The notes under the pieces are model-generated. The model saw nothing but the letters and a program-made list of their open reading frames with translations. It was not told the origin of the DNA and ran no database searches. Positions 5,298 to 36,187 of a stretch of 64,000 nt of DNA are shown piece by piece (the first letter of the stretch is position 1; the number at the start of each line of letters is the position of its first letter). The stretch spans positions 1 to 64,000 of the forward strand of contig JANQPF010000006.1 in the NCBI GenBank assembly GCA_028285415.1, given 5' to 3'. Source of the stretch: Pseudomonadales bacterium (GTDB lineage Bacteria; Pseudomonadota; Gammaproteobacteria; Pseudomonadales; Azotimanducaceae). Position numbers and translations under genes: made by a program.

Positions 5298-6857
5298 ATG
5301 TCCTCTCTAAACGTAGACGTGTGCATTCTTGGCGCCGGTATGGCCGGACTCACGCTTGCGAGGCAGCTGCAGCGGGCGGCTCCGGATCTACACGTTGCGC
5401 TCGTCGAGCACCGCCGCTACCCGGTACCGGAATCGGCTCACAAGGTCGGCGAGTCCACGGTCGAAATTGCCGCCCACTACCTCGCTGAAGACCTCGGGCT
5501 GAAAGCGCACATGACCGATGCACAGCTCCCCAAGTTCGGTCTGCGTTTGTTTTTGCGTGGGGAGGAACCCATAGCCGACGACCTGGCACGCTACGATGAG
5601 GTTGGTGCAAGTAAGGTTCTACCCATACCGACCTATCAGATTGACCGGGGCCGGCTGGAGAACTACCTGGCTGCCGACGTCGCGGCAAACGGGGCGGATC
5701 TTCTCAGCGGGGCGACGCTGCGCGAGGTGGCGCTCAAACCGGGTGCGCACAGGGTGCGCGTTCGGTCAGAAAATGAAGAGCGGCACGTCCAGGCGCGGTA
5801 TCTGGTGGACACGAGCGGCAGACGCGCCTGGTTGCGGAACCAGCTGGAACTCGGTCGCGATGTGCGCCATACGAACCACGCGGTCTGGTACCGCACGGAT
5901 GCGGAATTCGATCTGGACGGCTGGAGCGGCGACGCCGGCTGGCGGGCGCGCTGCCATGGAGAACCGCGCCGCCTCAGCACCAACCACTTCTCCGGACCCG
6001 GCTACTGGCTCTGGCTGATTCCGTTGGCCTCAGGCTGCACCAGCGTCGGCCTGGTTTTCGACGCCAGGTTGGTCGATGTTAAAACGGTCAACACGCACGA
6101 TAAGCTGCTGAACTGGCTGCATATCGAACATCCGCTCGTAGCTGAACGCCTGCGGGATCATCCACCTCTGGACTTCCACGTCCTGCAGGATTATGCGGTC
6201 AGTTCGAAAGAGGTCTTTTCAGCAGACGGGTGGATGTTGAGCGGTGATGCGGGTGTATTCGCCGACCCGTTCTATTCTCCCGGTGCAGACTTCATCGCTT
6301 TCGCCAACGGCTTTGCCACGGAGCTCATCACTAAGGGTGGTGATGTCGAACGCTGGCAGAAGTATCAGCGGTACTTCCTCACGTTTTTCAGCAACACGAT
6401 GTCGCTATACCGTGGTCAGTATGCGGGATTCGGCAACCGCAATCTCATGGTGTTGAAAACCTTGTGGGACTACACCTACTACTGGGGGCCGTTGGCAAAA
6501 CTGTTTTTTTCCCGTCGCTACCTCGATCTCGAATTCATGCAGAACGCCCAGGACGACCTGCTGCGTGCCTCCGCGCTCAACTCCGGTATGCAGGGCAAAT
6601 TCAGAAAGCTGGCGAAACTGCAGGAGCGGGTCGGCGGTGAAGGGCGCTTCTTTGACCACCATGCGATCCCGCTCTTTCACACCATGAAAGAACAGCTGCT
6701 GGCTGGCGATTCCGTGTGCATGGATACCGAACTGCGCGACTCAGTGGCAACGCTTCAGGCCCTCGCCGAGCTGCTCGATGATCTGTTGCAGCGTACAGCC
6801 GATGGCGAAACGCTGCCGCCGCTCGAGGAGATGGGTCAGCTGCCGGTGTTGGCGTAG
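5298..6857 (+). CDS. Flavin-dependent halogenase-like monooxygenase, first copy
   Basis: A 519-residue FAD protein. GAGMAG at residues 12-17 is the dinucleotide-binding loop, and WLWLIP at residues 237-242 matches the WxWxIP motif of flavin-dependent halogenases; GDAG followed by a DPFYSPG stretch is the second FAD contact. Xanthomonadins are brominated aryl polyenes and their clusters carry such enzymes, so aryl halogenation of the polyene is the best guess. Hydroxylation or reduction by a related flavoprotein is possible. Start is ATG at 5298, behind AGGTAAGG. It overlaps the convergent exporter gene by 22 bp. Confidence 0.78.
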   Translation: MSSLNVDVCILGAGMAGLTLARQLQRAAPDLHVALVEHRRYPVPESAHKVGESTVEIAAHYLAEDLGLKAHMTDAQLPKFGLRLFLRGEEPIADDLARYDEVGASKVLPIPTYQIDRGRLENYLAADVAANGADLLSGATLREVALKPGAHRVRVRSENEERHVQARYLVDTSGRRAWLRNQLELGRDVRHTNHAVWYRTDAEFDLDGWSGDAGWRARCHGEPRRLSTNHFSGPGYWLWLIPLASGCTSVGLVFDARLVDVKTVNTHDKLLNWLHIEHPLVAERLRDHPPLDFHVLQDYAVSSKEVFSADGWMLSGDAGVFADPFYSPGADFIAFANGFATELITKGGDVERWQKYQRYFLTFFSNTMSLYRGQYAGFGNRNLMVLKTLWDYTYYWGPLAKLFFSRRYLDLEFMQNAQDDLLRASALNSGMQGKFRKLAKLQERVGGEGRFFDHHAIPLFHTMKEQLLAGDSVCMDTELRDSVATLQALAELLDDLLQRTADGETLPPLEEMGQLPVLA

Positions 6858-9058
6858 CGCCCGAATCTCGCCAGCAGGTACGCTGCGATGACCCCGGCGG
6901 CGACCGTGGCACCGATACTCCTGAGCACCGGTATTTCAGATAGAGACAGGATGCCGAACACGAGCAGGCTCGAAACGGCACAGATCAACACGGCGCAGGC
7001 CGTGGCGCGATCATCCGTCCGCGGCCGCTCGCGACCGTAGAACAGCACGTAGTCCAGTCCCAGACCGGTGACGAGGATGAGTGCGATGAGGTTGAACAAA
7101 GACAAACCACCCAGCCAGACGACGCTGCAGGCTGCGGCGAAGGCCATCGCGGCGACAGCATTCAACAAGAGCCAGAGCGACTCCCTCAGGCTCAGCCGAA
7201 CGCCCAGCATCAGCGCAATGACAGCCAGCGCAATCAGCAGCAGCGTCACCAGGCGAGAACGGTAGTCTGCCACCAGGTTCTCGGAAGCGAGCTTCAGATC
7301 CAGGAGTGCCGCCTGAGGTACAGACTGAAGCGCTGCCATGACTGCTTCCCTGTCTGTCAGACCGCGTAGAAAAACGAGACTCACCCAGCCGTCGGCATGC
7401 TCAAAAAAAAGGTTGTCGACAGCGCCACGGAGGGCGGGCTCATCGCGTAACGCCGTGAACGTGGCGAAGCCGTCGTTGTCCCGTTCGTCTTCCAGCGCCT
7501 CGATAAACGTCGCGAACGCTGCGGGTTCGAGCGCGGCCGCTGCAGCGCCCGCTTCGAAATCCTCAATCGAAAAGGCGTCAAGCGCCTCGCGCCGGTGCGA
7601 TTGCGTGTCCCGGCTTGGCAGAATTTGCGTGATGCTCTGCACGCCGACCAGCTTGCCGCTTTCCTGCAATGGCCCGAGCGTTGCGACAGCCCGTTCGGAA
7701 GCACGTAGCGCTTCTTCCTGACTGCCCGCTTTCACGCTGACGAGATAGCGGATATCGGCCACCCCGAGCGTGGTGCGCAGCTGCGCATCCGCTTCGAGCA
7801 GATTGGCGTCTACCGGCGTCAGACTCGACAGGTCGTCGTTAAAGACGGGAAAAGCGAAGAGCACCGCAGTGGACACGCCCAGTGCGGTCACTGCCGGCCA
7901 CCACCTCAGCACCTGCTTCACCGGCGGCGTTTCGGGCGAGCGCTCTGTATCTGCAAGATCAACGCTGCGGTGAGTTATCCAGGCTGCAGTCAGCGCTGCG
8001 GCGATGATGCCGACCAGGGCGAAAGCGCCGAGCTGCTGCAAACCCGTGGCACCGCTGAAGATCAACGTGGCGTAGGCGATGCACGTCGACAAGATGCCCA
8101 GACGAAGCACCTTCCAGACATTGCGGTTGCCCGCGCTGGTGCCTTCTTCGGCATGGATAAAGAGGTGCAGCGGGTAGTCGAGCGCCACGCCCAGGAGCGT
8201 AAAACCGAACGCCAGGGTAATCCCGTGGACTTCGTCGAACGCGAAGGTAAGCGCCAGCATGGCGCTCACACCCCCGGCGGCCAGCGGCAGGGCGACGCCA
8301 ATCACGCGCTGGGGGGATCTGAAGCGGAGCACAATGAAAAGCAGGAGGGCAATGCCGGCAATGCTGCTGAAGAGCGTTGCCTCGAAGCGTACCGACTCCT
8401 GCAGGTCCACCGCATAAACCGGGCTACCCAGGAGCTGCGCCCCTCCGGCGCGGCGGGCCAGCGTTGCTCTGATATCGGTAACGAGCCGGGTCTGCGCAGC
8501 GAGCTCGAAGCCCGCAGGTACGGTCTCCAGCATGAGGAGCTGGGTGCTGCCCTGATCGAACGCGGGCGGACTGGCTCCGGCGGCGAAGCGGCTCAGCGCG
8601 TCGATGCTCAACAGCGCCGGGTCCGCTGCGATGAGGGCCAACGTATCGTCGTCCGCAGCAAACATGAGATCGTCCGCGCGCTGGCTGAGCACTTCTGCCC
8701 AGGCGCCGGCGTCGGCTGGTAGATCTCCGAGCAGCAGCCGGCTGTTCCATAGAACGCGCGGCAGGCTGTCCGAGCTCATCGTGAGCTCTTCAGGCAGCAC
8801 GCGGCTGATGAGCGGGTGACTGCGCAGTTCCCCGGCAATGGCGGATGCCTCCGCAGAATTGGAGTCCTCGAGCGCTATGAACACGAGCTGTGCCCCGGCC
8901 CCCTGCCCGAGGCGCTCCGTCAAAAGTGACTGGGCAAGATCTCCGGGTGGCGGCAGGAATGCGCTCAGGTCGTAGCTGATCTCCAGTCGCAGCGCAGCAC
9001 CGGCGGCGACGGCAACGGTAACCAGCAACGCCAGCAGGACGCGATGATTGGCCGTCAC
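6836..9058 (-). CDS. MMPL/RND-family exporter of the aryl-polyene cluster (XanF/ApeM-like)
   Basis: A 740-residue inner-membrane transporter with an N-terminal TM, a large periplasmic loop, a block of about five TMs (residues 225-365), a second periplasmic loop and a C-terminal TM block. This duplicated 1+5 layout is the MMPL/RND plan, shorter than drug RND pumps. It is the last gene of the ACP-ligase-acyltransferase-LolA unit and starts inside the LolA-like gene (ATGA at 9058-9055). It probably moves the lipid-linked polyene across the inner membrane to the LolA-like carrier. Confidence 0.85.
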   Translation of the reverse strand: MTANHRVLLALLVTVAVAAGAALRLEISYDLSAFLPPPGDLAQSLLTERLGQGAGAQLVFIALEDSNSAEASAIAGELRSHPLISRVLPEELTMSSDSLPRVLWNSRLLLGDLPADAGAWAEVLSQRADDLMFAADDDTLALIAADPALLSIDALSRFAAGASPPAFDQGSTQLLMLETVPAGFELAAQTRLVTDIRATLARRAGGAQLLGSPVYAVDLQESVRFEATLFSSIAGIALLLFIVLRFRSPQRVIGVALPLAAGGVSAMLALTFAFDEVHGITLAFGFTLLGVALDYPLHLFIHAEEGTSAGNRNVWKVLRLGILSTCIAYATLIFSGATGLQQLGAFALVGIIAAALTAAWITHRSVDLADTERSPETPPVKQVLRWWPAVTALGVSTAVLFAFPVFNDDLSSLTPVDANLLEADAQLRTTLGVADIRYLVSVKAGSQEEALRASERAVATLGPLQESGKLVGVQSITQILPSRDTQSHRREALDAFSIEDFEAGAAAAALEPAAFATFIEALEDERDNDGFATFTALRDEPALRGAVDNLFFEHADGWVSLVFLRGLTDREAVMAALQSVPQAALLDLKLASENLVADYRSRLVTLLLIALAVIALMLGVRLSLRESLWLLLNAVAAMAFAAACSVVWLGGLSLFNLIALILVTGLGLDYVLFYGRERPRTDDRATACAVLICAVSSLLVFGILSLSEIPVLRSIGATVAAGVIAAYLLARFGRYANTGS

Positions 9059-28151: not shown

Positions 28152-28748
28152 TCAGAGCTTCATAACCCTCTGGTACGCGGGCCGGGCTTTCATTCGCTCC
28201 AGATAGTTTTTGGTGTTGGGATACTTGTTTCCAATAACGGTTTCCAAAAGCGCGATGGAATGCCCCATCATGACGTCTGCAGCACTGAACGCCTCGCCGA
28301 GTAGATAGTCCCGATCCGCAAGCGCCTCCTCGATCACGTCAAAACAGATGTGCGCTTTTTCTACGGCTTCTGCAATGAGTGCTCCAGCATCGTCGTCCTC
28401 AGCTCTGAGTATCCGATGAAGGCCCAAGGGTCGAGTTAGAGTCGCTTCGCCAAACCAGCACCACTGGTGAAAAAGCGCACTCTCATCAGTGCCGGGATTC
28501 GGATGCAAACGGCCTTGTGCGTACCGCTCCAGGATGTAGTTCACCATTGCACCCGATTCGAACATTGTCAGATCACCGTCGATCAGCGCTGGGACTTTGC
28601 GCGCCGGACTGATCGCTCGCCACTCCTTCGAGTTGCGATACTCAGGCGAAAAGTCAACGTGCTCGACTTTCACCGAAAGGTCTAACTCGAAACAGAGCCA
28701 GACAGGCCGGACGGAACGAGTACCAGGAACATGAAAGATTTTTAGCAT
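28152..28748 (-). CDS. Glutathione S-transferase family protein
   Basis: A 198-residue cytosolic GST. The N-terminal thioredoxin-like domain has RSVRPVW near the active site, VPALIDGD (cis-Pro loop) and ESGAMVNYILERY (glutathione-binding Glu-Ser). The helical C-terminal domain includes FSAADVMMGHSI with the N-capping Asp. It is divergent from the ABM/ArsR pair and its promoter region contains two ArsR-type operators, so it is probably induced with them to detoxify an electrophile. Confidence 0.88.
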   Translation of the reverse strand: MLKIFHVPGTRSVRPVWLCFELDLSVKVEHVDFSPEYRNSKEWRAISPARKVPALIDGDLTMFESGAMVNYILERYAQGRLHPNPGTDESALFHQWCWFGEATLTRPLGLHRILRAEDDDAGALIAEAVEKAHICFDVIEEALADRDYLLGEAFSAADVMMGHSIALLETVIGNKYPNTKNYLERMKARPAYQRVMKL

Positions 28749-28793
28749 GAGGGTTATCTTCCGCCGACTTGATAGATGATTTCCAGCCTATAT

Positions 28794-28809
28794 TTAGCAA
28801 TATTGCTAA
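28794..28809. promoter_or_regulatory. ArsR-type operator 1
   Basis: TTAGCAATATTGCTAA is a perfect 16-bp palindrome, 45 bp upstream of the GST start. A second, related site starts 37 bp further on. Confidence 0.7.
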
Positions 28810-28830
28810 TTAAAGAGGATGTATATATAT

Positions 28831-28846
28831 TTAGCAAGTACGCTAA
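28831..28846. promoter_or_regulatory. ArsR-type operator 2
   Basis: TTAGC-N6-GCTAA repeats the arms of operator 1 with a degenerate centre (AAGTAC), and the flanks match too (TATTTAGCAA before, TAATTAAAG after). It lies 34 bp upstream of the ABM-like gene. Confidence 0.65.
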
Positions 28847-28880
28847 TTAAAGCGTCGATAGGTCGATAGAAGGAAAGAAC

Positions 28881-29201
28881 ATGCCGAGCAAAGTCATCTG
28901 CCAATATCGCGTGAAACGAGGAAACGAGCAGGAGTTTGAAAAGCTCCTCAAAAACCACTGGCCGACACTCCACCAGCTGGAGCTGGTTACCGACGAGCCT
29001 TCGCAGCACTTCAAAGGTGAAGAGCAGGATAACGGTGAACCTATTTACTTCGAAATCTTTGACTGGCTGGACGGCGCGGTGGAACGAGCCCATGAGCATC
29101 CGGAGGTCATGGCCGTCTGGGAGCCGATGGATCAGCTGTGCGAAACGCGCGGTGGCAAACCGAACATGGAGTTCCCGCACGTGGCTGCATTGAATGCCTG
29201 A
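28881..29201 (+). CDS. Dimeric alpha-beta barrel (ABM-like) small protein
   Basis: A 106-residue protein with the ferredoxin-like barrel layout of antibiotic-biosynthesis-monooxygenase-like domains (VICQYRVKRGNEQEFEKLLKNHWPTLHQLEL, then IYFEIFDWLDGAVERAHEHPEVMAVWEPM). A heme-degrading or quinol-type monooxygenase role is possible but not shown. GGAAAG precedes its ATG. It overlaps the ArsR gene by 8 bp, so the regulator is produced with it. Confidence 0.7.
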   Translation: MPSKVICQYRVKRGNEQEFEKLLKNHWPTLHQLELVTDEPSQHFKGEEQDNGEPIYFEIFDWLDGAVERAHEHPEVMAVWEPMDQLCETRGGKPNMEFPHVAALNA

Positions 29202-29487
29202 ACCAAAAGGGGTTCTGGACATTGAGACGGCGGATAATGTCTTCTCGGCGCTCGCGCACCCTGCCCGACGGCAAATACTCTTGTCAGTTCACTATCGCGG
29301 TACCTGCAAAGCAGGCGACATCGCTCACCGGTTCGAATGCAGCTGGCCTACGACAAGCAGGCATCTGGCGAAACTTGTCGAAACCGGTTTGCTGAGCGTA
29401 AACAAGCAAGGTCGAGAACGCGTGTATACCGCAAACACGGAGCGACTACGTGATGTGTTGACGAAGTGGGCAGAGTATTTTGACTGA
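29194..29487 (+). CDS. ArsR family winged-helix regulator
   Basis: A 97-residue ArsR/SmtB-type repressor: NVFSALAHPARRQILL at residues 14-29 and the recognition helix in WPTTSRHLAKLVETGLLSVNKQGRERVY. The metal-site cysteine motif ELCVCDL is absent, so it probably senses an organic ligand or dimer contact rather than arsenic. Two matching inverted repeats sit between its operon and the divergent GST gene, so it likely represses both. Confidence 0.86.
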   Translation: MPEPKGVLDIETADNVFSALAHPARRQILLSVHYRGTCKAGDIAHRFECSWPTTSRHLAKLVETGLLSVNKQGRERVYTANTERLRDVLTKWAEYFD

Positions 29488-29621: not shown

Positions 29622-29785
29622 GCGCTCATGGTTGTGGCTTCTTCTGGCCGAATTGAGGCGTTCGCTGATCGTTAGCTGGCCGCCAGGTATCGTTCCATTA
29701 CAGATCTTCCCTGGGTGTCACCGCCTCTCCACAAACCACAGCTGCTGTTCTTGGATTCAGCTACTTGAACACACGAGGCGGCTCC

Positions 29786-29810
29786 TGACTAATGGTTTGA
29801 CCAATGGTCA
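29786..29810 (+). promoter_or_regulatory. TetR-type tandem operator in front of the RND efflux operon
   Basis: A degenerate copy (TGACTAATGGTT) is followed directly by a near-perfect dyad TGACCAATGGTCA (arms TGACCA and TGGTCA). The dyad overlaps a -35-like TTGACC (29797-29802) 30 bp before the adaptor ATG. The same arrangement is found at 34042-34066 in front of the TetR-fusion gene. Confidence 0.7.
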
Positions 29811-29831
29811 GAACTGTACTAGCCTAACGTC

Positions 29832-30920
29832 ATGACTCATATAGCTAGAAGTTGGTTTGCTGGCGGTAATTTGCTGATCTCGCTCCTTCTTGTGGGTTGT
29901 CAACCAGAGCTGTCACGTGATCGATTCGAAAGTAATCCGAGTATTCCCGTGGAGGTCACAATTCTTAAGCCGCGTTCACTCAAGACAAGCATCGAGCTGC
30001 ATGGCGTCTTGGCATCGTCGGAGAAAGCGGTCATTAAGGTCGAGTTCGCGGCGCCGGTGCTTGCGATTTTGGCTGAAGAAGGCGAGCAGATTTCCAGGGG
30101 GCAGCCGCTGCTGAGGCTGGACACCAGCAAAATGGCGTTGCAGTTCCAGCAGGTTGAGCACTTGCGTGAGCAGTCTCAAGCAGATCTTGAGAGTGCGCGC
30201 CTCAAACTATCCCGGCTGCGGGCTCTGGCCAGCAGCAACGTCATCCCGGCACAACAACTTGATGACGCGCGGCTCAACCATAAATCGACCGCAGCCCGTG
30301 TCAAAGAGCTCGAGAGTCGTCTTCAGATGATCAGACGTGATATCGATAAACAGGTCGTCAAAAGCCCGATGGATGCGATTGTCGGGACTCACCACGTTGA
30401 AGTGGGGGAGTCGACTGTCGCCTACCAAGCCCTGATAACTCTCCACTCTGTGCGGACGATGCAGGTTTCGGTATACGTAAGTGAAGAACAGCTTCCTTTT
30501 GTTCGCGTCGGCAACGCGGCTTGGGTAAAGACGGTGTTAGGCGAGATCGACTCCGCCATCCATTCGATATCTGCTGCCGCTGATCCCCGAACCGGAAACT
30601 ATGAATTGAGGCTGCTCCTCGAGAACAGAGACTCGAGACTTAAGCCAGGCATGACGGCAGAAGTGCTGCTACAAGCGATCCAATTCCAAGATCAGCTGGT
30701 TATTCCGGACACCGCGCTGGTGGCTTGGGAAGGACGCCACGTCGTTTTCATCGCAAACGGGAACACGGCCGAGCGACGAAACGTCGAGCTGTCTATCGCT
30801 TCCGACGATCATCTCATCGTTACCAGTGGCTTGAGTCAGGGCGAGTGGCTCATTACAAAGGGTGCCCGCCAGGTTACAGAAGGCTCTCTGATCGAGCTGT
30901 CTACGGGATCACCGCAGTGA
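29832..30920 (+). CDS. RND efflux periplasmic adaptor lipoprotein
   Basis: A 362-residue membrane-fusion protein. The lipobox LLVGC places the lipidated Cys at residue 23. The hairpin region (residues 75-155, SSEKAVIKVEFAAPVLAILAEEGEQISRGQPLL then coiled coil) and lipoyl/barrel segments (SPMDAIVGTHHVEVGESTV) follow the AcrA/MexA order. The pump gene starts inside its stop codon (GTGA), so they are coupled. The TetR-type operator upstream puts it under control of the fusion regulator encoded at 34089. No outer-membrane channel gene is adjacent. Confidence 0.88.
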   Translation: MTHIARSWFAGGNLLISLLLVGCQPELSRDRFESNPSIPVEVTILKPRSLKTSIELHGVLASSEKAVIKVEFAAPVLAILAEEGEQISRGQPLLRLDTSKMALQFQQVEHLREQSQADLESARLKLSRLRALASSNVIPAQQLDDARLNHKSTAARVKELESRLQMIRRDIDKQVVKSPMDAIVGTHHVEVGESTVAYQALITLHSVRTMQVSVYVSEEQLPFVRVGNAAWVKTVLGEIDSAIHSISAAADPRTGNYELRLLLENRDSRLKPGMTAEVLLQAIQFQDQLVIPDTALVAWEGRHVVFIANGNTAERRNVELSIASDDHLIVTSGLSQGEWLITKGARQVTEGSLIELSTGSPQ

Positions 30921-33900
30921 ATGCGCTCGTCGGCTTTTTCATCAATCGCCTCAATCTCGTAACTCTGATCCTGGTACTGGTTTCACTCCTTGGCCTGGTG
31001 AGTCTGGGCGCATTGCGCTACGAAATCATGCCCAGCATGGAGATGGGTGTAGTCAATGTGACCACAATGAAGGCTGGCGCCGGGCCCGAAGAGATCGAGC
31101 TTTCCATCACGCTGGTGCTGGAAGAAGAACTGTTAAAAGTCGACGGGATAGACAAGATCTTCTCTCAGAGCATGGAAGGTCTATCGCTCATCACGATCAA
31201 CGTCGATCCAGACACCCAAGACCGCATCCAGCTTTTGTCGGATATCCAGAAAGCAATCGATCGAGCACAAAGCCGGTTGCCCGAGGACTTAATCGAGCGA
31301 CCGTTAGTAGAAGAGCTCGGGTCGAAGCAACTGCCCGTCGCAGAACTGCACATCACCGGTGCTGTTGCCGAAGAAGTTCTGCGTCGACAGGCACGCCTGT
31401 GGCAGCAGAAGCTGCGAAACGTGCCGGGCGTGTCAGGTGTCGACAAGGCAGGTTATCGCCGACCGGAAGTCAAAATCCAGCTTGATCAACGCAAGCTTCA
31501 GCAGCTGGGCATGTCGCTGGATGAGATCACGACCGCCATTCTCGAACGAAACGTGCGCGACAGCGGCGGCTCAATAAACACCACGCGTGGCGAGAAAGCG
31601 ACTCTCACCGTAGGCCTGTTTACCGATCCAGCCGATGTCAAAAACGCAATTGTTCGCAGCCATGAGCCTGGCAATGCGGTGTTGCTACGTGATGTGGCTC
31701 AAGTCACTTCCGGATACGAGGACTGGCAGATTCAGAGCCGCACCGATGGGCAGCTGAGCATTGCCCTTCGGATAAACAAGAACGCGAATGCCGACGAGCT
31801 GGCGACCATGGCCGGGTTAAGAGCGGCGATCCAGTCGGAGTCAGCGCAGCTGCCAGAGGGCGTTCAGCTGCTGTTGGTGAATGATGTATCTCGATTCACC
31901 AAAGATATGTTGCAAGCACTTGTCACCAACGCGTGGATGGGGTTTGTTTCCGTCTTTGCGGTGTTGTGGCTCTTTCTTGGGCGTCACGTGGCGTTCTGGG
32001 TCAGCGTTGGCCTGCCTTTTTCTATTCTCGGCACTTTTTTCGCCCTGTTGTTTACGGGTTTTTCAGTTAACGGCATGACGCTGGTAGCTATGATCCTGGT
32101 TCTGGGAATGCTCGTCGATGACGCGATCGTGACCGCCGAGGCAATACAGGCAAGGCGCGAAACCGGATCCTCTTACGTACGAGCTGCCATTGAGGGTACG
32201 CGGGATGTCGCAGCCCCGGTTTCGATCAGCGTGCTGACCACAATTGTGGCCTTTCTGCCGCTCTTCACACTTGGCGGCCTGGAAGGCGAATTCATCAGAG
32301 TGGTTCCTGTCGTAATTTCATTAATGCTGCTGATCTCACTTTTTGAGAGCAAGCTTCTATTGCCCGCACACCTGGCCCACAGCCGTTACAAAGCTCAGCG
32401 GCGCAGCTGGCTCGTCACCGCGCAGCAGCTTTATCTCAGGGCGTTACTATTGCTGCTGAATCATCGACTCAGGGCTAGCCTCGCAATCGCAGCCTTATTC
32501 GCGGTGCTGGCCGTCGGCGCTACTTCTGCCATTCGCTTCCAGCTTTATCCAGAGACTGCGTTGGATACGATCCTCGTCAAGGTCGAACTAGAGAACAGCA
32601 CACCGTTCGAGGAAACCGTCACGCGCATCCATCAGCTTGAAAAGCGCCTCAGGTCGCTGATCCCTGCCGGTGATTTGCTCAATACCACCGCGGAGATCGG
32701 CCACCACGATACCGACGTCTACGGAGGTTCCGATGGCAGGAACCAGGCGTGGGCATTGCTTACGATCTACTTGAAACCGCTGAGGCAGCTCGAAGAGCAC
32801 CCGATGGTCACGCTCTCCCGATTGCGCGAGCACGCCAGACACGAAAAGGATCTCCAGTCGATCAGTGTCGAACCTCTGGAGGATACACCCGTCCTCGGCA
32901 AACCCATCCAGCTCGAGATCCTCTCCGAGGGTGACGAAAAACTAGTAGCTGCCGCCCGCATCAAGGGCTATCTAGCCACTCTGCCGGGCATCATGGACGT
33001 TTGGGACAGCCATACCGAGGGCAAGGATGTCTTGGATCTGGAGTTTAACTATCACAACCTGGCCGCTTACCAGCTGAGCGTTAAGCAGGTCGCCAATGCC
33101 GTTCGAGTAGCGCTTGATGGTTTAATCATCGCCGAACAGCAGCTGGCCGAGGAGCGCACCTACTTCCGACTGACCCTGATTCAGTCCGAACGGAAGCGCT
33201 TACGCACGCTCAATGAGCTCTTCATCGTTAACCGTGAGGGCCGGCCAGTTGCGCTGAGCTCTGTCGCCACTTTCCATCTGCGGCCTGGAGAGGCAGCAAT
33301 CAAACACTTCAATGGTCGCAGGACCCTGACGGTCTACGCTGAAATCGATCGCTCACGCACTGACGTCTACACTGTCAACGACCAGCTGGGCGCCTATCTG
33401 GATCAAGCGGATTGGCGTCGGCAATTTCCAGAAATCGATTTCTACCAGGGCGGCGAGCTCCAGCAACAAGCCCAGTCATTTGGAGGCCTCGGCATCGCCT
33501 TTCTCGCCTCTGTTCTCATGATCCTGTTCCTGCTCATCATGCTCTTTAACTCCTTCAGCCAGGCATTGCTGATCCTTGCCATTCTTCCATTCAGTCTGGT
33601 AGGCGTGCTGCTGGCATTCGCCGTACAGGACCTGCCCTTGAGCTTCGTTGCGCTTACTGGCGTGCTTGGTCTGATTGGAGTGCTCGTAAACGATTCTGTG
33701 GTGATGGTGTACTCACTGAATCTGGAGGCAGGCCCGAAGTGCGCGAAGGCGGTCGCCGAGAAGGCGATGACTCGTTTTCGGCCGATCGTCATCACTTCGG
33801 TGACCACTCTTGCCGGCTTGTTGCCCACAGCATACGGCTGGGGTGGTGCGAATCCCTTTGTTGCCCCGATGGTGATGTCGATGGTTTGGGGCGTGATGTT

Positions 33901-34051
33901 CGGCACGGTGATCTCCCTGTTCCTGCTGCCTTGCCTGTATCTGCTCCTCAGTGATGCGCACACCCGATTGGCTGAGGCCTGGGAGAACAACAGAAAAACC
34001 AATGGTGCTCGCACAAGCCAGGTCTCAGGTATCCGAATTTCTGACCAATGA
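30917..34051 (+). CDS. RND efflux pump inner-membrane transporter
   Basis: A 1044-residue transporter with the duplicated RND plan: TM1 near residue 10-30, a periplasmic domain, TMs 2-6 at about 330-540, a second periplasmic domain, and TMs 8-12 at about 850-1020. Asp401 and Asp402 (GMLVDDAIVTAE) are the proton-relay aspartates. Start is GTG at 30917, overlapping the adaptor stop; the longer frame to 30725 lies inside the adaptor gene. It exports a drug-like or lipophilic compound using a separate outer-membrane channel. Confidence 0.9.
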   Translation: MNALVGFFINRLNLVTLILVLVSLLGLVSLGALRYEIMPSMEMGVVNVTTMKAGAGPEEIELSITLVLEEELLKVDGIDKIFSQSMEGLSLITINVDPDTQDRIQLLSDIQKAIDRAQSRLPEDLIERPLVEELGSKQLPVAELHITGAVAEEVLRRQARLWQQKLRNVPGVSGVDKAGYRRPEVKIQLDQRKLQQLGMSLDEITTAILERNVRDSGGSINTTRGEKATLTVGLFTDPADVKNAIVRSHEPGNAVLLRDVAQVTSGYEDWQIQSRTDGQLSIALRINKNANADELATMAGLRAAIQSESAQLPEGVQLLLVNDVSRFTKDMLQALVTNAWMGFVSVFAVLWLFLGRHVAFWVSVGLPFSILGTFFALLFTGFSVNGMTLVAMILVLGMLVDDAIVTAEAIQARRETGSSYVRAAIEGTRDVAAPVSISVLTTIVAFLPLFTLGGLEGEFIRVVPVVISLMLLISLFESKLLLPAHLAHSRYKAQRRSWLVTAQQLYLRALLLLLNHRLRASLAIAALFAVLAVGATSAIRFQLYPETALDTILVKVELENSTPFEETVTRIHQLEKRLRSLIPAGDLLNTTAEIGHHDTDVYGGSDGRNQAWALLTIYLKPLRQLEEHPMVTLSRLREHARHEKDLQSISVEPLEDTPVLGKPIQLEILSEGDEKLVAAARIKGYLATLPGIMDVWDSHTEGKDVLDLEFNYHNLAAYQLSVKQVANAVRVALDGLIIAEQQLAEERTYFRLTLIQSERKRLRTLNELFIVNREGRPVALSSVATFHLRPGEAAIKHFNGRRTLTVYAEIDRSRTDVYTVNDQLGAYLDQADWRRQFPEIDFYQGGELQQQAQSFGGLGIAFLASVLMILFLLIMLFNSFSQALLILAILPFSLVGVLLAFAVQDLPLSFVALTGVLGLIGVLVNDSVVMVYSLNLEAGPKCAKAVAEKAMTRFRPIVITSVTTLAGLLPTAYGWGGANPFVAPMVMSMVWGVMFGTVISLFLLPCLYLLLSDAHTRLAEAWENNRKTNGARTSQVSGIRISDQ

Positions 34052-34066
34052 TTTGACCAATGGTCA
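34042..34066 (+). promoter_or_regulatory. TetR-type tandem operator in front of the TetR-oxygenase fusion gene
   Basis: TGACCAATGATT is followed at once by the dyad TGACCAATGGTCA. The dyad is identical to the one at 29798-29810 in front of the pump operon. It covers the -35 element of the promoter described separately. Confidence 0.75.
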
Positions 34067-34081
34067 GGAGTTGGGTATAGT
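34053..34081 (+). promoter_or_regulatory. Sigma70 promoter, leaderless transcript predicted
   Basis: TTGACC (34053-34058) and TATAGT (34076-34081) are 17 bp apart. Transcription should begin at about 34088-34089, which is the ATG of the fusion gene, so the mRNA would have no leader and no ribosome site. Confidence 0.65.
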
Positions 34082-34088
34082 CACGCCC

Positions 34089-35483
34089 ATGAACGATGGA
34101 AAACCAGCCTCTGCTGATCGAGGCCAAAGAGAGACGCTGTTAGAAACGGCAACTGCTGAGTTCGCAGCAAACGGGTTCGAATCGACCTCGGTCCAGAGCA
34201 TCGCCACAGCTGCCGGAGTAAGTAAAGCCAAGCTGTTCTACTACTTCGAAGGCAAGGAAGCACTGTATTCGGAAGTCCTGGCGCACAGCCTCGAGCCGCT
34301 CCTTGGCCCACTGGAGTCAATCACCGATGCAGCGTCCGCCGAGGCGTTCTGGGAGTCCCTGGAGTCGGGCCTGCAGTTTGCGTTCGAGTTTGTCGCCCGT
34401 GATCCGCACACCGCCGCCCTCGTTCGTGGACTCTACCGCCGAGGAGGGCACTCGCCTTCGCTGGAACGCCTTCTCGATCGCGCCAGAACTGCGGTATGCA
34501 CCTGGCTGCTTGATGGCCAGCAACTTGGTGCGGTACGAACGGATCTGCCGGTTCAAGTTCTCGCAGAGGCCGCTGTTGGAGCACTCGTGCACATCGATCG
34601 CTGGCTCGCATCGAGCACCGAAACTGGAGCTGCCGCCGAGATGCTGGTACCCGCTTCAGCACTCAGCACGTTCGCCCGCGATGCGCTTCGGCAGCGCATC
34701 GCTGCAGAGTGTGTTGCTGAGGTCGCCTACGCTACTGATGACGCGCCCCTGGAAATTGACGCTTACCTCGATGTAAACAAGACAGTAAACCATGAGGTTC
34801 TGCTGCGTGACGGAAGGGTTACCCAACCCGCGCCGCGATTCGGTGAGGAAGGTTTTGAGCTCATCTCCGCACCCGTTATCTTCGATTTACCACCAACCGA
34901 TGGTGAAGCGAGAGCAGCCTATCACCTGCTCGAGACTACGCTCAAGGACCATCTGGGAGCCGCCTTCGCGAGGGTTTTCGATCACACGATTCGACATACC
35001 GAAAGCACACCGGGACGACGCCCACCCATTCGGGTCACTCACGCGGACTACGGGCGCGATGCGGGTATCCGTCGATTCCAAGAGGTTCTCTCCGGAGACG
35101 AGGCTTCGGCGTGGAAAAATGCACGCATTGTAGTCGCGAACCTCTGGCAGTCGTTAGCTGGGGTAGTGCACTCCACGCCTCTGGGATTCGTAGATTTGAA
35201 TTCCGTGCGCGACGAGGACTTCATCCCGGTAACCGTACATTACCCGGACAGAGACGGTGAGATTGGCTACTACCGGCACAATGATGCACATCGCTGGTTC
35301 TGGTTTCCTTTTCTCCGCCCTACTGAAGCTTTGCTGTTCAAGACCTTCGATGGAGCACCAGACTCCGGTCATTGGTCTTGTCCACACGCCGCGTTCACGG
35401 CACCAAACGCGCCCATTGAGTTGAACGGCCGTCGAACGAGTATTGAGTTTCGCGTCCTTCTTGCGTTCACACCCGATACTTGA
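34089..35483 (+). CDS. TetR repressor fused to a CmcJ/NvfI (AsaB) family oxygenase domain
   Basis: A 464-residue two-part protein. Residues 10-60 are a TetR HTH (SVQSIATAAGVSKAKLFYYFEGKEALY) followed by a helical ligand domain to about 200. Residues about 225-464 match the CmcJ/NvfI/AsaB family: HADYGRDAG at 318-326 (His318-x-Asp320, possible Fe ligands), ARIVVANLWQ, AHRWFWFPFLRPTEALLFK (His401 in AHR), PHAAF (His433) and SIEFRVLLAF. This family includes Fe(II)/2-oxoglutarate enzymes such as NvfI. Both halves are full length with no stop between. Start is chosen from the promoter. It probably represses the pump and its own operon and may chemically modify or bind the inducer. Confidence 0.85.
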   Translation: MNDGKPASADRGQRETLLETATAEFAANGFESTSVQSIATAAGVSKAKLFYYFEGKEALYSEVLAHSLEPLLGPLESITDAASAEAFWESLESGLQFAFEFVARDPHTAALVRGLYRRGGHSPSLERLLDRARTAVCTWLLDGQQLGAVRTDLPVQVLAEAAVGALVHIDRWLASSTETGAAAEMLVPASALSTFARDALRQRIAAECVAEVAYATDDAPLEIDAYLDVNKTVNHEVLLRDGRVTQPAPRFGEEGFELISAPVIFDLPPTDGEARAAYHLLETTLKDHLGAAFARVFDHTIRHTESTPGRRPPIRVTHADYGRDAGIRRFQEVLSGDEASAWKNARIVVANLWQSLAGVVHSTPLGFVDLNSVRDEDFIPVTVHYPDRDGEIGYYRHNDAHRWFWFPFLRPTEALLFKTFDGAPDSGHWSCPHAAFTAPNAPIELNGRRTSIEFRVLLAFTPDT

Positions 35484-35491
35484 GCGCCGAG

Positions 35492-36187
35492 GTGAGTCCG
35501 TTTACATCTTTCGGCAGGGGAATCTGGATTTGCGGCGGTCCTCGGGTGCGTATGTTGACGATCCCGTTTAACACCCGCATGACCGTGATCGCATTAAACG
35601 CGCAAGAGCTTTGGGTTCATTCGCCAGTGGAGCCGACAATCTCGATACGAGAGGCTGTCAGCAAACTAGGGAGCGTCCGCTTCATCATCGCGCCAAACAA
35701 GCTCCATTCGCTTGGCGTTGAGCACTGGAAAGAACACTTCCCTTCGGCAGAGGTCTGGGTCTCCCCCGGTTTCTGTAGTCGACATCCGCAGCTCCCCGCC
35801 GATCACGTCATCGGCGCAGAGGTTCCCGAAGAATGGAAGAGCGAACTGGACACCCTGCTCTTTCGTGGCAGTACCTTTCTCGACGAAGTCGTCTTTTTTC
35901 ACCGACTCTCCCGCACTTTGGTGCTCACGGATCTCATCCAACGCCATGAGGCGAGTAGAGAGCCCTGGTTCTGGCGTGCAGTTAAACGGAGCGTTGGTGT
36001 CCTTGGGCACTCCGGAGGCACCGCGCGGGATCTTCGGTGTACTTTCCGCGACCGTAGTGCAGCGCGCGAAAGCGCAGAGTCTGTACTGCGATGGGACTTT
36101 GACCGTGTAGTGATTGCTCACGGGATGTGCATCGAACAAGACGCCCACCGCGTCGTAGAAGATGCGTTCGGATGGGCACTCAGCTAA
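35492..36187 (+). CDS. DUF4336 protein (metallo-beta-lactamase-like fold)
   Basis: A 231-residue cytosolic protein. The order GIWICGGP, TRMTVIAL, LWVHSPV, FIIAPNKLHSL, VWVSPG and FFHRLSRTLVLTDLI is that of DUF4336, a group related to the metallo-hydrolase fold without the full HxHxDH zinc motif. The start is GTG at 35492 (or TTG at 35480, overlapping the fusion stop); both keep the conserved N-terminus. The function is unknown. Its place behind the fusion gene suggests a role in handling the same compound. Confidence 0.75.
   Translation: MSPFTSFGRGIWICGGPRVRMLTIPFNTRMTVIALNAQELWVHSPVEPTISIREAVSKLGSVRFIIAPNKLHSLGVEHWKEHFPSAEVWVSPGFCSRHPQLPADHVIGAEVPEEWKSELDTLLFRGSTFLDEVVFFHRLSRTLVLTDLIQRHEASREPWFWRAVKRSVGVLGHSGGTARDLRCTFRDRSAARESAESVLRWDFDRVVIAHGMCIEQDAHRVVEDAFGWALS

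Follow-up and report, generated by a model that had tools for sequence, protein, structure and literature searches.

Can one protein be both a TetR-family repressor and an oxygenase? The question is raised by an open reading frame in the 64,000-nucleotide stretch of Pseudomonadales DNA analysed here (the window), which a sequence-only reading had described as a TetR repressor continuing, without a stop, into a CmcJ/NvfI-type oxygenase. The known CmcJ/NvfI oxygenases come from secondary metabolism, and their defined substrates are few; TetR regulators abound, and few of their inducers are known. A fusion of the two that comes with a defined predicted operator would offer a testable way into both, as any compound that releases the operator would become a candidate substrate for the oxygenase, and vice versa. 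The features discussed below are listed in Table 1.

Table 1. Coordinates of the fusion gene, its domains and neighbouring features in the window
Feature	Position	Strand	Basis or remark
RND periplasmic adaptor	29832..30920	+	TIGR01730, 202.7 bits
RND permease	30908..34051	+	ACR_tran, 519.7 bits; start codon approximate
Predicted operator at pump genes	29785..29811		25/27 identical to fusion-gene operator
Candidate pump promoter, TTGACC-17-TAGCCT	29797..29825	+	6 nt to ATG; weak -10; missed by promoter scan
Predicted operator at fusion gene	34041..34067		27 bp; holds palindrome TGACCAATGGTCA
Sigma-70-like promoter of fusion, TTGACC-17-TATAGT	34053..34081	+	10/12 matches; overlaps operator
TetR-CmcJ/NvfI fusion gene	34089..35483	+	464 aa, no internal stop
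TetR half, residues 1 to ~205	34089..34703	+	border with oxygenase approximate
HTH of TetR half, residues 17-63	34137..34277	+	Pfam TetR_N
Inferred linker, residues 206-228	34704..34772	+	
CmcJ/NvfI-type iron/2-oxoglutarate oxygenase domain, residues 229-460	34773..35468	+	NF041278, NvfI 7de2
Iron ligands H318-x-D320	35040..35048	+	aligned to NvfI H135/D137; 89/89 relatives
Iron ligand H433	35385..35387	+	aligned to NvfI H250; 83/83 rows with a letter, 6 gapped
R449...R455, candidate 2-oxoglutarate-binding arginines	35433..35453	+	conservation; 2-oxoglutarate role putative
DUF4336 protein	35480..36187	+	PF14234, 72.3 bits; putative TTG start

The fusion gene and its junction

Translation of ORF 34089–35483 gives one open frame of 464 aa with 0 stops. 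Searches with the two family models, which the sequence-only reading had proposed as a check, placed both halves above the respective cut-offs: Pfam TetR_N matches residues 17–63 with 51 bits (cut-off 24), and NCBIfam NF041278 (CmcJ_NvfI_EfuI) matches residues 229–460 with 193.9 bits (cut-off 80; 195.4 bits in another run), so that the C-terminal domain does belong to the oxygenase family claimed for it. The TetR-oxygenase fusion is real, and its coordinates and architecture are confirmed. A DNA-binding domain and an enzyme domain thus lie within one chain, as in the trigger enzyme or enzyme-sensor class.

Both halves had also been called full-length. This holds for the TetR half, of which residues 8–176 align by phmmer with the TetR structure SCO3833 (2iai), and which is 33% identical over 190 aa to a stand-alone 208-aa TetR of Sulfitobacter dubius, its best match among plasmids (32.6% in the plasmid search). 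The alignments to 2iai and to the 208-aa protein support a full-length ligand and dimer domain, as far as sequence comparison can tell. The oxygenase half is nearly full-length, leaving positions 1–28 of the NF041278 profile unmatched.

At the junction, codons 186 to 359 contain no in-frame ATG, GTG or TTG, so the oxygenase could not be produced alone from an ordinary start; a separate gene would need an unusual start codon or the ATG at codon 185, which still lies inside the TetR half. Codon scores across this region rank frame 1 first of the three forward frames, with values of 4.9, 6.5 and 7.8 for scoring windows beginning at residues 181, 201 and 221. One antisense frame scores 7.0 at residue 201, level with frame 1. 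Farther from the junction, a few windows, such as those at 101 and 401, give frame 1 a weak score or do not rank it first. A stop, a frameshift or a two-gene reading was rejected on the strength of three observations: the uninterrupted frame, the codon signal among the forward frames and the missing internal start codons. They bear also on the broader notion of a neutral or artefactual fusion, in which a TetR gene and a CmcJ gene were joined with no added function, whether by merging recently or through an error of assembly or base calling. We regard this as highly improbable: it fits an arrangement seen in one genome only, among those searched, and in the assembly of one strain, but the best forward coding frame stays the same across the junction, a separate oxygenase gene would have no ordinary start codon, and every key residue of the oxygenase half has been kept despite its divergence.

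The iron site of the oxygenase half

The oxygenase half has no Pfam match at E ≤ 0.001; a phmmer search of the PDB aligned it with NvfI (7de2, E 2.4e-7; 7emz) and a 2-oxoglutarate dioxygenase (7eus). A possible His318-x-Asp320...His433 iron site had been suggested from the sequence, and the alignment bears this out: H318, D320 and H433 correspond to H135, D137 and H250 of NvfI, numbers which were counted by hand on the phmmer alignment with a 20-residue chain offset. NvfI is described in PMC8292354 as a double-stranded beta-helix that holds iron and 2-oxoglutarate. The active-site section of that paper prints the triad as His135-His137-Asp250, whereas in the NvfI chain sequence position 137 is Asp and position 250 is His; as the sequence contradicts the print at both positions, we take the printed triad to be a slip.

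Conservation was measured on 89 aligned relatives. A phmmer search with the oxygenase half had given 93 different ORFs (E ≤ 1e-4), of which the window's own and any with fewer than 150 matched residues were taken out; such a selection by similarity in itself favours conserved residues. H318 and D320 are invariant in all 89 relatives. The same is true of H433 in the 83 rows that have a letter at this position (6 gapped), of R449 in 83 of 83 (6 gapped) and of R455 in 82 of 82 (7 gapped). Judged from these alignments, the iron site is intact. With its HxD...H triad, its conserved C-terminal arginines and a score well above the cut-off, the domain resembles the other CmcJ/NvfI/EfuI oxygenases of NF041278, and differs from them in being joined to a TetR domain, found in frame at none of 128 loci other than the window's own gene.

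Two properties point the other way. The unmatched profile start corresponds to a region where NvfI carries extra strands, according to PMC8292354. Stand-alone CmcJ members of the genus often begin at profile positions 25–32 as well, and four stand-alone matches, among the matches listed by tblastn, align with the fusion from residues 183–187 on. The domain is also very divergent, with an end branch of 2.15 changes per column and an ambiguous placement in the tree, so its substrate cannot be guessed from its kin. Divergence, the long branch and the missing N-terminal profile positions would suit a domain that has lost catalysis and serves the repressor as a sensor of iron, oxygen or 2-oxoglutarate. 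Retention of all three triad residues and both arginines argues against such a loss, and the adjoining pump and DUF4336 gene suggest that a compound is handled; we therefore consider a non-catalytic sensor improbable.

Occurrence of the two domains in other genomes

NF041278 was searched in five overlapping genome sets, each including the window's own genome, and matched 39 of 40 genomes at the level of the genus, 153 of 206 for the family, 46 of 390 for the order, 18 of 369 for the class and 25 of 398 for the phylum. We also searched the whole 464-aa protein in 58 genomes and in 206 family genomes, own genome included, scoring at most 8 candidates per genome in the latter set. Among the matches listed, none outside its own genome covered both halves; the 45 other matches listed for the 206 genomes all start at fusion residue 183 or later. 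A second TetR-CmcJ fusion was not found among the matches listed, and the fusion is seen in one genome.

The loci around CmcJ matches gave the same picture. An iterated TetR profile was run on every ORF of 90 aa or more in 128 CmcJ loci (107 different C-termini), and the window's own gene alone has a TetR domain in the CmcJ frame. TetR was found in 12 of the 128 loci, five of them copies of the window's own gene (L001, L031, L036, L131 and L152) and seven from other genomes. At the latter, which come from five genomes, a separate TetR gene lies beside the CmcJ gene, a frequency (7/128) whose excess over chance is not established. In two of these genomes, G186 and G309, the genes are close together on the same strand, an adjacency that recalls the fusion; they differ from it in being two genes, in opposite orders in the two genomes, with a cupin-like gene nearby and no RND pump in the stretches examined (both by eye). 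The claim that TetR repressors and CmcJ/NvfI oxygenases otherwise occur as separate proteins is thus borne out among the loci examined.

Long frames containing CmcJ domains were considered as further fusions. Twelve such loci (L121–L124, L129, L181–L187) were rejected, as none has a TetR domain, and the iterated profile found none in L034, L005, L104 or L105. By eye, most long frames behind CmcJ matches look like chance extensions. Outside the set that was read lie G349:C1:61616 (493 aa), G517:C179 (453 aa), G1213:C140 (750 aa, one stop), G1237:C121 (509 aa, one stop) and most frames of about 410–460 aa of the L034 kind. CmcJ matches also occur in 22 plasmid records, all below 60% identity; of five regions opened, three are annotated, all with stand-alone CmcJ genes, and two list no genes. 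A search for related loci gave only two weak TetR matches in genome contigs and none in viral contigs. Among the matches listed from the open-licence literature, no title or abstract start names a TetR-CmcJ fusion.

Several other architectures were encountered. A 718-aa frame at L182 (G1252:C338, 1044–3197) has its CmcJ domain at 462–718 (261.9 bits), preceded by about 400 residues which by eye resemble a phytanoyl-CoA-type dioxygenase and have no Pfam match at E ≤ 0.001; the frame may be a fusion of two oxygenases in tandem. In one CmcJ subfamily, present in over 20 genomes of the genus as well as in other genera, the match begins at profile position ~36–51 within frames of about 410–490 aa; its copy in the window's own genome (L034) has about 175 residues ahead of the match, without a domain recognised here. 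At L126 (G003:C46, 2236–3732), a 499-aa frame appears by eye to hold two tandem TetR repressors.

Among characterised proteins, AcrR and MtrR are TetR/AcrR-family repressors of RND pumps, and the known repressors of this kind are about 200 aa long and lack an enzyme domain. The fusion shares with them a TetR_N domain, an adjoining pump and a palindromic operator, in its case a predicted one, over the promoter, but it has some 240 more residues, which carry the oxygenase. The AcrR and MtrR models themselves match it far under their cut-offs. One-component regulators or trigger enzymes with enzyme companion domains, such as BirA, named in PMC5882156, resemble the fusion in combining a DNA-binding and an enzyme domain in one chain; that paper counts 70 types of companion domain for TetR/AcrR, and a term search of its main text found no 'dioxygenase'. 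The fusion is a new domain combination, in one genome, within this known kind of regulator.

Predicted twin operators and a proposed regulatory circuit

The RND adaptor and permease that precede the fusion (29832–34051) are ordinary by domain content. An operator common to the pump and the fusion had been claimed, and the two sites, 29785–29811 and 34041–34067, indeed agree at 25 of 27 bases and stand at nearly equal spacing to the two ATGs. Each contains the 14-mer core TTGACCAATGGTCA, which occurs exactly only twice in the 5,972,477-base genome, both times at these operators (0.04 expected under equal base use). The 13-bp palindrome TGACCAATGGTCA, which overlaps TTGACC, has 12/13 self-matches, as against 6/13 for the poorly palindromic flanks. 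Looser matching of the core picks out nothing special in the window (5 matches at ≤3 mismatches vs 4.3 expected); in the genome, ≤2 mismatches gave 24 matches vs 13 for a reversed control. The sequence TGACCNNTGGTCA gave 90 genome matches at ≤1 mismatch vs 44 for the reversed control, and occurs without mismatch at only three places: the two operators and a site upstream of another TetR gene on contig C12.

That third site (C12:265958–265970; L178 1459–1471) reads TGACCGATGGTCA, lies directly ahead of the TetR gene and is a predicted sister operator of the same type; by eye, a second related site, TGACTGGCGGTCA, adjoins it. Two further candidates were not taken as regulatory, C12:66310, which falls in a coding frame, and C13:194754, which was judged from its sequence alone. 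Around the Sulfitobacter dubius plasmid TetR gene (L149), a 14.5-kb locus has 9 core matches at ≤3 mismatches vs 3.4 expected, a number reached by 1 of 200 shuffles; none lies in the stretch preceding the TetR gene, 6780–6960. For the two genes downstream, Pfam gave no match at E ≤ 0.1, and two BLASTP comparisons showed no meaningful similarity.

The fusion-gene operator overlaps the -35 element of a sigma-70-like promoter whose -10 ends 7 nt short of the ATG. As a scan of the region found 3 sigma-70-like sites vs 2.7 expected, which is chance level, weight rests on the operator common to both promoters. Given the short distances from -10 to ATG (7 nt for the fusion, 6 nt for the pump), both transcripts are probably leaderless or nearly so. 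Downstream, the first possible start of the DUF4336 gene, TTG 35480, overlaps the stop of the fusion (TTGA).

Read from the sequence, the fusion, its intact iron site, the common operators and the gene layout most likely represent a tethered, autorepressed regulator-enzyme in control of an oxidation and export module. We infer that the TetR half, as a dimer, would bind the TGACCAATGGTCA operator over the -35 elements of its own and the pump promoters and repress both, until an inducer entering the TetR pocket releases it. Levels of the pump, of the coupled DUF4336 protein and of the oxygenase, which is built into the repressor, would then rise together, and the compound would be oxidised and then exported, in a putative detoxification role. 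As enzyme and repressor are one molecule, the level of the enzyme would be tied to autoregulation of the repressor. We hold this circuit to be probable, with clear room for doubt. In its favour are the domain matches, the conserved triad and arginines, the lack of a start for a free oxygenase, the twin operators with their exact core confined to these two places, the third TGACCNNTGGTCA site ahead of another TetR gene, the TTGA overlap and the TetR/CmcJ neighbours elsewhere; against it stand the single genome, the unmatched profile positions 1–28, the divergent oxygenase half, the lack of TetR and CmcJ frames in the stretches examined from the closest pump kin, the poor operator flanks, the weak pump -10 and the chance-level promoter scan. 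Sensing, chemistry and export of some compound appear to be wired together.

A tighter coupling is conceivable, in which the inducer, or the repressor itself, is the substrate of the oxygenase and turnover directly sets DNA binding, giving a self-limiting switch. The oxygenase half would convert the compound that the TetR half answers to, or read an oxygen, 2-oxoglutarate or iron signal, and pump and enzyme would be switched off at the very moment the substrate runs out, a one-molecule detoxification switch. We know of no TetR that destroys or changes its own inducer in the same molecule. An intact active site in the same chain as a full-length TetR half, and the operator common to its own gene and the pump, are compatible with such an enzyme-sensor, but nothing in the sequence shows coupling, and at its length the TetR half could sense a ligand without help from the oxygenase. 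Single-sequence structure models of the whole chain (mean pLDDT 33.7) and of the oxygenase half (32.1) are too poor to judge a metal pocket or the domain interface. We rate a self-clearing switch as unlikely, though it deserves some weight; if turnover does feed back on DNA binding, the protein would offer a compact design for self-resetting sensors.

The pump was also followed into related genomes. Homologues were sought in 150 family genomes, and for the two closest (47%, G1184 and G1221) the stretches examined contain neither a TetR nor a CmcJ frame, so that the combination of pump, operator and fusion seems special to this genome among those searched. Just ahead of the pump, positions 28152–29487 of the window encode a GST, a small protein without a Pfam match and an ArsR-type regulator, a group that possibly belongs to the same detoxification neighbourhood.
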